Part shown: in pieces, positions 58,800 to 60,921 of the stretch
Layout of the letters: each line of letters begins with the position of its first letter
Numbering within the stretch: position 1 is the first letter of the stretch
Assembly (NCBI GenBank): GCA_031285905.1
Contig: JAITVH010000152.1
Span: forward strand, 1-64,000
Direction of reading: 5' to 3'
Origin: Prevotella sp.
Lineage (GTDB): Bacteria > Bacteroidota > Bacteroidia > Bacteroidales > Dysgonomonadaceae
DNA: 64,000 nucleotides
Translations under genes and position numbers: made by a program
Notes under the pieces: generated by a model
The model's input: only the letters and a program-made list of their open reading frames with translations
Database searches by the model: none
What the model was told of the DNA's origin: nothing

Positions 58800-59300
58800 T
58801 TATCCCGGCTTTTTCCATGTATGCAATCTTTCTATGGCCTGCCTCATTACAGTACCCAGCTCCGGGTCGGTAGTCTCTATAATCCATGGCTTAGGTTCTT
58901 TTACTTCCTTATCCTCTTTTTCCTTCTTTTTACGGTCGTTGCGTTCAATAACAAATTTGATAGCTGCCATAACGGGAGCTACTTCCTTTTCTCTGATTAT
59001 CTCTTTCTTCAGGATAGATACATTCGGGTTACTTGGGGAGGGTTCATACTCTCTCCTTGTCTCTTTTATTCTATATCCTTCCAGCTTTTCTTTTAGTGAC
59101 CTTCGGGCAAGTGCCACCAACATTTCCTCACATCTTTCTTTAGCCTCTTCGATGGCTTTCCTGAACTCGGGCTTGTTTTCATACCACTGGTAGTATGTCT
59201 TGCGGCTGATGTCCAGCGATTCGCATATTTCCGCGATGGTGAACAGATCGGTTTCGATCATATTGATCATCGTCCTTACTAGTTTTTCTGTGTACTTCAT
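58800..59300 (-). CDS. phBC6A51/terminase-small-subunit-like HTH protein, orphan
   Basis: LFTIAEICESLDISRKTYYQWYENKPEFRKAIEEAKERCEEMLVALARRSLKEKLEGY. Confidence 0.75.
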   Translation of the reverse strand: MKYTEKLVRTMINMIETDLFTIAEICESLDISRKTYYQWYENKPEFRKAIEEAKERCEEMLVALARRSLKEKLEGYRIKETRREYEPSPSNPNVSILKKEIIREKEVAPVMAAIKFVIERNDRKKKEKEDKEVKEPKPWIIETTDPELGTVMRQAIERLHTWKKPG

Positions 59301-59342
59301 AATCTTTTTCTTTTTGTTGTTATTTATCTGTTATTGTTTTCC

Positions 59343-59425
59343 TGTAGGGGCGAAATATCTTTCGCCCAATGTTCAAATGTGAGCAAATATTTACTGGTTC
59401 GGGCGAATGTTTATTCGCCCCTACA
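59343..59425. repeat. TGTAGGGGCGAA...TTCGCCCCTACA double-hairpin repeat (MITE/REP-like)
   Basis: 12-bp terminal inverted repeats enclosing GGGCGAAATATCTTTCGCCC and GGGCGAATGTTTATTCGCCC. Confidence 0.88.
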
Positions 59426-59474
59426 TGTATAGATAAATTCAGAAAAAAAAGATGAAAAAAGAATAGAAATATTC

Positions 59475-59762
59475 TTATAAAGCACGCAACTTCCGCCACA
59501 GACACCCTAACACTCCCCTACTCTTTTCAGGTACAGCTTCAGGTTCGTCCCGCCTGCTTTCCGTTGCCTGTTTCAGAACTATGCGGTACAAGGTATGCAT
59601 CAATGCGAGGTTCTTATCTATTTTTTGAAGTTGTTGCCGGTGGTCATCGTCTGTGAGGTGCTGCATCAGATAATTTACCATGTTTTTGGTTTCCAGATAG
59701 TTGTTAAGGATCAGGGTAAGAGAAGCATTAATGGTGTCGGGAGCCTTTTCCGACTCTATCAT
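59475..59762 (-). CDS. Hypothetical 95-aa helical protein
   Basis: MIESEKAPDTINASLTLILNNYLETKNMVNYLMQHL...; start overlaps the stop of an upstream 23-codon ORF (ATGA). Confidence 0.6.
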   Translation of the reverse strand: MIESEKAPDTINASLTLILNNYLETKNMVNYLMQHLTDDDHRQQLQKIDKNLALMHTLYRIVLKQATESRRDEPEAVPEKSRGVLGCLWRKLRAL

Positions 59763-59830
59763 TCGTCCATATCCCTGATAATATCGCCGAAGGTAGGAGG
59801 TGACTCTCTGTGGTTGCTTTCGCCTTGCAT
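59759..59830 (-). CDS. Small ORF (23 aa) translationally coupled to the 95-aa ORF
   Basis: MQGESNHRESPPTFGDIIRDMDE*; TGA overlaps the downstream ATG. Confidence 0.4.
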   Translation of the reverse strand: MQGESNHRESPPTFGDIIRDMDE

Positions 59831-60045
59831 AGTTTTATATATATAAAGAAGCGGGAGAACATTTACCTGCCGATTGCACAGGGAGTCGAAGCCCTCATAC
59901 ACGAACAGGAAACGCCTCCCGCCCTATATAATAAGGCGGGTTCGGCATTCTTGCTGCTTTCGTGTATGTGCGATTTTCGACTTTTGTGCAATACGAACCA
60001 GCTAAACGCTTTTACCTTTACCAATATCTATGTCATGTCACCATT
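59828..60045 (-). ncRNA. Candidate structured RNA/leader: ~205-nt extended imperfect hairpin behind a TATCTTTG promoter
   Basis: Nested complementary arms: 59862-59869/59999-60006 (7 of 8), 59873-59880/59985-59992, 59884-59890/59976-59982, 59896-59905/59959-59968 (10 bp), 59918-59923/59935-59940; CATAG/CTATG closing pair 59828-59832/60028-60032. Confidence 0.6.
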
Positions 60046-60052
60046 GACAGGG

Positions 60053-60060
60053 CAAAGATA
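60053..60060 (-). promoter_or_regulatory. -7 box TATCTTTG (minus strand) for the structured RNA / small-ORF transcript
   Basis: Plus strand CAAAGATA directly precedes the hairpin region; no clear -33 TTTG seen. Confidence 0.45.
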
Positions 60061-60143
60061 GGGATATTCTTTTGTTTTTTGTTTAGTCATTATATTGCTT
60101 TATTGTATAATACATCAAATTTTCGATACATTTTGGGGTTGTG

Positions 60144-60225
60144 TGTAGGGGCGGATTATCATCCGCCCGCAATAACCAACGGGCGAAAGATATTTGGCTT
60201 CGCCGATTTTCAATTCGCCCCTACA
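60144..60225. repeat. Second TGTAGGGGCG...CGCCCCTACA double-hairpin repeat
   Basis: TGTAGGGGCGGATTATCATCCGCCC...GGGCGAAAG...TTCGCCCCTACA. Confidence 0.85.
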
Positions 60226-60486
60226 GCGACCAGAAAAAATGCGACAATATTTTTTACCTATTACTTAATCTACAACTATTTACAAAAATAAACGATCAAT
60301 ACCAAATAAAATATTTTAAAAGCAACATAAATTATCTACTGATTATAAGTATGTTACTCCCGTTTTTAACAAGAAAAGCAAGAATATGGTAAATTATCGC
60401 ACAAAATGCGGTAAAATATCTTAATTTAGCGGTAAACTTAAGAAACGGGATTTTGTTAAACCACTTGTACTTATACCACTATAAAT

Positions 60487-60921
60487 ATGGAAGCTGTAAA
60501 AGAGAATAAAAAGAAAGTTCATCAGGGCAGGAATATCAGGATAGCCCGTAATTTCCAGAATATTACACAGGAAGATCTAGCCTTTAAGCTCAACCTGTCG
60601 CAAAGCAAAGTGTCCGATCTGGAACTGAAAGAAACATTGGAAGATGAACTGCTTGATAAATTTGCCGCTGCACTCAATATTCCAATAGGTTTCCTGAAAA
60701 ACTTTGAGCCGCAAGAGTTTATGAAATCATATACAGTTACTGATAATACTCTTAATAATAATGCTGCCGAAAATTCACCTGAGAGCGTAACCCAACAAAT
60801 TATTGGTGATACAGAACAAACATATATTTATAATCCACTAGAAAAAGTTTCTGAACTCTACGAACGGCTTCTTAAAGAAAAGGAACAACAGATAGAGGAA
60901 ATTAAGGGAAAGGGAAATTAA
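60487..60921 (+). CDS. XRE family HTH transcriptional regulator with C-terminal coiled coil
   Basis: GRNIRIARNFQNITQEDLAFKLNLSQSKVSDLELKETLEDELLDKFAAALNIP; LYERLLKEKEQQIEEIKGKGN. Confidence 0.85.
   Translation: MEAVKENKKKVHQGRNIRIARNFQNITQEDLAFKLNLSQSKVSDLELKETLEDELLDKFAAALNIPIGFLKNFEPQEFMKSYTVTDNTLNNNAAENSPESVTQQIIGDTEQTYIYNPLEKVSELYERLLKEKEQQIEEIKGKGN

Follow-up and report, generated by a model that had tools for sequence, protein, structure and literature searches.

Attenuators of the trp type and that of the pT181 rep leader are built on exclusive pairings in a 5' leader, in which segments 1:2 and 3:4, the latter followed by a U-tract, compete with 2:3. The tetQ gene of CTnDOT is controlled by translational leader attenuation, with a leader peptide and in one operon, and elsewhere c-di-GMP riboswitches occur in many copies per genome and report a second messenger. 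To our knowledge, few cis-regulatory RNA classes are known from Bacteroidota. Among the described RNAs, Bacteroidales-1 (RF01693)/6S is a near-linear hairpin of ~180 nt in Bacteroidales, and Fremin and Bhatt 2021 list palindromic Bacteroidetes candidate RNAs of 80 to 132 bp, e.g., HMP2_4205 and HMP2_4078 (PMC8040213). Weinberg 2010 names a GUCCY-hairpin, there without an Rfam number (PMC2864571). FopS and GibS are paralogous Bacteroides sRNAs, of which FopS is ~65 to 70 nt long, acts in trans and uses a 5' seed (PMC11697453).

The locus described here lies in a stretch of 64,000 nucleotides (64 kb), which we call the window. An earlier note, made from the letters alone, had reported a long hairpin on the minus strand, nested complementary segments with small internal loops, and a promoter directly ahead. 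All of these are present: the minus strand from 60060 to 59828 folds into a long near-linear hairpin of -89.7 kcal/mol (RNAfold, z -7.0, with 0 of 200 shuffles as good), its complementary segments are nested around small internal loops, and the promoter letters stand at 60060-60053. The parts of this copy and its adjacent genes are as follows.

60061-60073, minus strand: AAAAGAATATCCC, conserved in the close-copy alignment and adjoining the -7 element on its upstream side; AAAAGAATATC within it is invariant.
60053-60060, minus strand: -7 promoter element of the Bacteroidota type TAnnTTTG, letters TATCTTTG, invariant in the six closest copies.
60036-60049, minus strand: palindrome TGTCA-N4-TGACA just after the -7 element, retained with altered letters in close copies.
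59849-60011, minus strand: leader RNA core, 163 nt (RNAfold; covariance model R2, 130.8 bits; covariation over 83 relatives).
Pairs from about 60010 to 59858, minus strand: long-hairpin fold S1 of the window copy (RNAfold).
59945-60009, minus strand: 5' half hairpin of fold S2, segments 1:2 or A:A' (half-fold energies; family-wide pair counts).
59849-59924, minus strand: 3' half hairpin of fold S2, segments 3:4 or B:B', terminator-like and running into a U-rich tract (half-fold energy).
59836-59848, minus strand: U-rich tract behind CCCGCUU, interrupted in the window copy, CUUUAUAUAUAUA (from the sequence).
59759-59830, minus strand: ORF of 23 codons plus stop, the 5' piece of the downstream gene (alignment with the paralogue at L007).
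59475-59762, minus strand: 95-aa ORF, the remainder of the same downstream gene, a small protein (same alignment).
60487-60921, plus strand: gene of an XRE-type HTH regulator of 144 aa (Pfam, PF01381), divergent from the RNA and its partner in this subgroup.

The hairpin region had also been said to end at the ATG of a 23-codon ORF. The ATG is there (59830-59828, minus strand) and 23 codons plus a stop follow it, but the frame is not free-standing, as the downstream gene is 10 nt shorter than its paralogue at L007, and this deletion relative to L007 frameshifts the gene and splits it into the 23-codon and the 95-aa ORFs. No Pfam family was found for the small downstream proteins. The plus-strand ORF calls over the hairpin, suspected in the note of being artefacts, find no support: at most 14 of 169 copies keep any one frame open across the core, and the core lengths of close copies vary out of frame. 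The order XRE gene, RNA, small gene and terminase-small-like/HTH gene (166 aa, PF13022/PF07141) is duplicated within the genome, at 58800-60921 of the window (C134) and at L007:229-2759 (C124). In genome G021 (L009:8865-10704), the RNA is followed downstream by a three-Cys-motif partner TcmP (TIGR04474) and then by a DUF5131 protein. Palindromic REP/MITE-like repeats (GTAGGGGCG...CGCCCCTAC) flank the leader RNA of the window at 59340-59425 and 60147-60226, the upstream one standing in place of sequence found in the paralogues.

The divergent XRE gene occurs at 11 loci, all in the window's subgroup, always upstream and on the opposite strand, and its product probably also controls the leader promoter in this subgroup. 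The palindrome at 60036-60049 is a candidate for either a 5' stem-loop of the transcript or an operator for the divergent XRE protein. A palindrome TGTCA-N-TGACA stands directly after the -7 box in the XRE-linked copies L008, L009, L010 and L011, with the form TTGTCG/CGGCAA in L008. We rejected an XRE-RNA pair as the whole system, since the XRE partner is limited to the Dysgonomonadaceae subgroup.

For the identity of the RNA, the earlier note had put forward 6S or Bacteroidales-1 and proposed a covariance-model search, which does not sustain this idea. Neither the 6S/SsrS nor the Bacteroidales-1 model matches in the window, RF00013 (6S/SsrS) has no match in the whole genome either, and no Rfam 15 family reaches its gathering score in the 64-kb window, where E values up to 10 return merely two chance miRNA matches. 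Fifteen related loci are likewise without an Rfam 15 match at gathering score, and three family representatives searched against Rfam at E up to 10 gave chance matches alone, far under the cut-off. The genome's true Bacteroidales-1 RNA (RF01693) lies elsewhere (G000:C79:14926-15099, 147.2 bits), and the leader exists in seven copies beside genes. Its length and near-linear hairpin shape alone recall 6S/Bacteroidales-1, to which the family has no sequence or structure match; with the absent Rfam match and the separate Bacteroidales-1 RNA, we consider membership refuted for all practical purposes. The further suggestions in the note, a structured leader of the ORF or a new ncRNA, lead in the right direction: the RNA is structured, has a promoter of its own, and is both conserved and covarying among relatives, and it is not a lone ncRNA. 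The family is uncatalogued in Rfam 15. With the Fremin and Bhatt candidates and the GUCCY-hairpin it shares a hairpin-like form and an occurrence in Bacteroidetes, and one candidate is near integrase/phage genes; the lengths that Fremin and Bhatt give, 109 to 132 bp, are shorter, the comparison being by description and not by letters (PMC8040213). An earlier partial detection of the family among these candidates, or as GUCCY-hairpin, is possible.

DNA similarity located two further copies in the same genome and one each in three relatives, and in the six-way alignment the promoter, AAAAGAATATC and the hairpin are conserved and the flanks diverge. A covariance model of the core of the close copies (R1) found further members, and a second model (R2) comprises 83 sequences. 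The specificity of R2 matters because a long hairpin may attract other long hairpins. In the window's own genome it gives seven matches, all with E < 1e-14, and returns no others even when E values up to 10 are admitted; over 354 kb there are 46 matches with E < 1e-8 and none from 1e-8 to 1e-3, and the score at the window copy is far above every other score in the window. R2 places copies in 50 of the 101 genomes of the family, with up to 20 per genome, and in at least 63 of 396 genomes sampled over Bacteroidota, a lower bound as seven candidates were scored per genome. A pattern derived from the shared ends was run over species genomes of bacteria and archaea and retrieved 76 stretches. Almost all of them come from Bacteroidota, and the covariance model confirmed 74. 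The matches include Flavobacteriia (Zobellia, Polaribacter, Salegentibacter, Wenyingzhuangia and others), Odoribacter, Alistipes, Rikenella and Dysgonomonas sp. 25; those in Colwellia and Campylobacteraceae were not confirmed by the covariance model. Two leader RNAs lie near each other, in tandem or divergently, in single loci (L227:3784-4279, L224:4480-5147 and L090:2946-3831).

The position of these copies is that of a leader. A TAnnTTTG box stands upstream in 120 of 161 loci, with a peak 50 to 70 nt before the core; among control stretches 10 of 152 have one, and among shuffles 8.5%. At 83 of 111 loci a sense ORF of at least 90 aa begins no more than 130 nt from the 3' side, compared to 11 for the 5' side, and the start codon stands a median of 59 nt behind the hairpin. 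The 160 leader loci lead to 84 unrelated protein clusters, among them BspA-type LRR, BACON and VWA proteins, an FGE-sulfatase with a glycine-rich domain, proteins with SprB/Por secretion tails, and also Hsp70-like, chemotaxis receptor, RibD_C and HSDR_N proteins; by a crude rule, about half of the downstream proteins are predicted to be exported. We regard both the RNA family and its leader position as secure.

Some of the copies travel with mobile elements. In Flavobacteriia they come after primase, NikA-like, relaxase, ParA and RHH genes, and six integrative/mobilizable elements (L138, L143, L153, L161, L113 and L169) present the backbone primase, NikA-like, relaxase, a protein of ~150 aa, ParA, RHH, leader RNA and cargo, with type I restriction-like genes next in L161. 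A phage-type integrase and Mob_Pre are found near the RNA in Dysgonomonas sp. 25. Three gut species, Bacteroides fragilis, B. xylanisolvens and Parabacteroides distasonis, have the leader on plasmids of ~8 kb (105 bits). These plasmids (L252, L253 and L254; CP103111.1, CP103209.1 and NZ_OY725784.1) code for a replication initiator, mobilization proteins and a RelE/HTH pair, and their leader has no annotated gene directly under it. A phage origin was rejected, with no match in viral contigs (strict patterns, weak evidence) or phages. A retron-type msr-msd RNA had been considered for the multicopy, patchy spread and was set aside, as an unsystematic look noticed no reverse transcriptase in the listed neighbourhoods.

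The alignments support two mutually exclusive folds. In the covariance alignment built from homologues, 57 of the 58 pairs of S1 have changed on both sides among the 83 sequences, 91% of the cells are paired, and the covariation score is 0.671 versus 0.183 when shuffled and 0.05 to 0.07 with the partners slid, values that lean towards S1 because the alignment was fitted to that structure. The lowest helix is the least well preserved (76.6% paired). G-U pairs exceed C-A mismatches about 8:1 (487 versus 60), so the working strand is the sense strand. RNAalifold on the unfitted MAFFT alignment returned S2 instead, in which either half of the RNA is folded on itself; its pairs, which include a GGU:ACC absent from S1, are formed in 95.4% of the cells and covary at 0.321 versus 0.207 in an alignment not fitted to S2, more weakly than those of S1. 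Folded alone, the halves of 113 distinct RNAs reach means of -17 kcal/mol (5' half, z -2.3) and -31 kcal/mol (3' half, z -3.9). The 5' half hairpin of the window copy is weak (z -0.5), and its 3' half folded alone reaches -37.8 kcal/mol (z -4.2) and appears once the 5' half is blocked.

The four segments read A = GCGUUUAGCU, A' = ...AACGC, B = GCGUGGGCUG and B' = CAGUUCCCACGCUU, and those of the Dysgonomonas type CCUCCCGCUU against GCGGGAGG. When the duplex energies of cognate and swapped segments are compared, A':B (S1) is favored most, B:B' and A:A' (S2) come next, and A:B', which forms the base of S1, comes last. Each S2 hairpin has a loop complementary to that of the other (P4, adjoined by P3 and P5), which allows S2 to zip into S1. 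Folding of the growing transcript has the 5' hairpin as its first minimum, which S1 then replaces; when the 5' half is blocked, a terminator-like stem arises from the 3' half in four of the five leaders tried, a 3:4 stem with a large structured loop. S1 exceeds S2 in stability by ~15 kcal/mol, and the inner helices of S1 can close while the tail has yet to be transcribed. The U-tract amounts to 6.5 T in the 8 nt behind CGC, with at least 5 T in 92% of the loci scored. At the level of comparison and predicted folding, these data demonstrate that the RNA is able to form either S1 or S2.

The arrangement is therefore that of an attenuator, with exclusive and conserved 1:2 plus 3:4 and 2:3 pairings, a U-tract after the 3:4 stem (interrupted in the window copy) and a position between a promoter and a same-strand gene. 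Of the mechanisms considered, transcription attenuation through alternative folds has the best support, and we hold it to be moderately probable. We infer regulated termination from the two conserved exclusive folds and the U-tract. Transcription would start behind the TAnnTTTG box, read ~50 to 70 nt and then run through segments 1, 2, 3 and 4 (A, A', B and B'). In S2, the tandem hairpins 1:2 and 3:4, the latter ending in the U-tract like an intrinsic terminator, would present their complementary loops and halt transcription ahead of the gene, leaving an RNA of ~200 nt; in S1, with 2 paired to 3 and the loops paired together in a single long hairpin, the RNA would act as an antiterminator and admit RNA polymerase to the gene. 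After readthrough, many of the copies that are not on Flavobacteriia elements may pair the freed tail with a site further on (P8). A factor binding the first hairpin or the loops would suffice as the biasing signal, and the family would drive many unrelated, often exported proteins as well as mobile-element cargo. Termination may need a factor or be rare, because S1 is the better fold and its inner helices zip before the tail, and S1 itself might terminate, because its base also abuts the U-tract. The large structured terminator loop, the interrupted U-tract and weak 5' half hairpin of the window copy, the Flavobacteriia copies without P8 and the weaker covariation of S2 weigh against the attenuator; the sigma-70/terminator scanner used covers neither the TAnnTTTG promoter type nor large terminator loops.

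Compared with trp-type and pT181 attenuators, the proposed antiterminator differs in being an extended hairpin of ~58 bp with freely varying loop-loop helices, used by dozens of unrelated genes. By eye, no conserved leader peptide or short ORF was found over segment 1 of the leaders inspected, unlike in trp-type attenuators, and an antisense TAnnTTTG promoter inside the hairpin, as in pT181, was not consistently seen. With the tetQ leader of CTnDOT the family would share attenuation in a leader on a Bacteroides mobile element, but that attenuation is translational, with its leader peptide and single operon.

Its own promoter, the U-tract and the very stable S1 would also suit a stand-alone small RNA that ends at the U-tract with S1 as the mature form and acts in trans by base pairing or protein binding, gene proximity being incidental or the gene having its own promoter. 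A possible base-pairing target is (A/T)CGCCA, the complement of the 3' hairpin loop, which stands at the ORF start, 22 to 41 nt downstream, in 8 of 21 Flavobacteriia loci, the only ones on which this evidence rests. The proteins concerned are unrelated (L107, L110, L128, L139, L143, L153, L161 and L167), each of the three frames is used, and about four independent gene families are represented, a pattern that is suggestive only. Paralogous trans-acting families are known in Bacteroides, and FopS and GibS resemble the leader in forming a multicopy Bacteroidota RNA family with canonical promoters and a link to surface functions; FopS differs in size from the ~160- to 200-nt leader hairpin (PMC11697453). 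A constant short distance to the start codon over many unrelated genes argues instead for readthrough and cis action, and so does P8, a pairing past the U-tract in which the tail complements a site ~20 to 35 nt downstream, before the start codon. Its duplex energies are -8.9 for cognate, -6.7 for non-cognate and -5.0 for shuffled partners, and its letters change in a compensating manner, e.g., AAAGUUCCC/GGGAGCUUU and UUUUGUCC/GGACAAAA; P8 is absent from the Flavobacteriia mobile-element copies. Taken together, a stand-alone RNA appears rather doubtful.

The many copies per genome ahead of unrelated, mostly exported proteins would also fit a riboswitch-like leader, in which the conserved internal-loop letters flanking P4 (GAAA, AAUUU, GGGU and ACC) form a ligand site and the copies inform surface-protein genes of the level of a metabolite or second messenger, a reading that can be combined with the attenuator and would name its signal. 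Conserved loop letters beside freely varying helices are compatible with it, but S2 pairing (GGU:ACC and GAAA:UUUC) explains these letters too, and no junction-type aptamer is visible, so we consider a riboswitch improbable. The relaxase, NikA-like, ParA and RHH genes of the Flavobacteriia elements, the integrase and Mob_Pre of Dysgonomonas sp. 25 and the ~8-kb Bacteroides plasmids recall a palindromic DNA element, akin to a single-strand origin or an ssDNA promoter, of which the RNA would be a by-product. Most Bacteroidales copies, however, are without mobilization genes in the screened neighbourhood and stand ahead of exported-protein genes, and the 8:1 G-U/C-A asymmetry and the conserved promoter indicate RNA, which makes a DNA element very unlikely.

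Returning to the attenuator, we give about an even chance to its widest form, a phylum-wide class of bistable leaders that number up to 20 in a genome. Their two tandem hairpins, the loops of which are complementary, would convert into one extended hairpin and so control readthrough into unrelated surface-protein and mobile-element genes under one shared cellular signal. Bacteroidota are dominant bacteria of the animal gut and of many marine environments. A leader present in about half of the family's genomes and in at least one in six sampled Bacteroidota, ahead of at least 84 unrelated gene clusters, would rank among the commonest regulatory elements of the phylum. Its members would form a regulon, a search for the signal of which is now feasible, and the cis pairing of two complementary-loop hairpins would be an unusual switch design that is testable, with the plasmid copies of gut Bacteroides opening the leader family to genetics.
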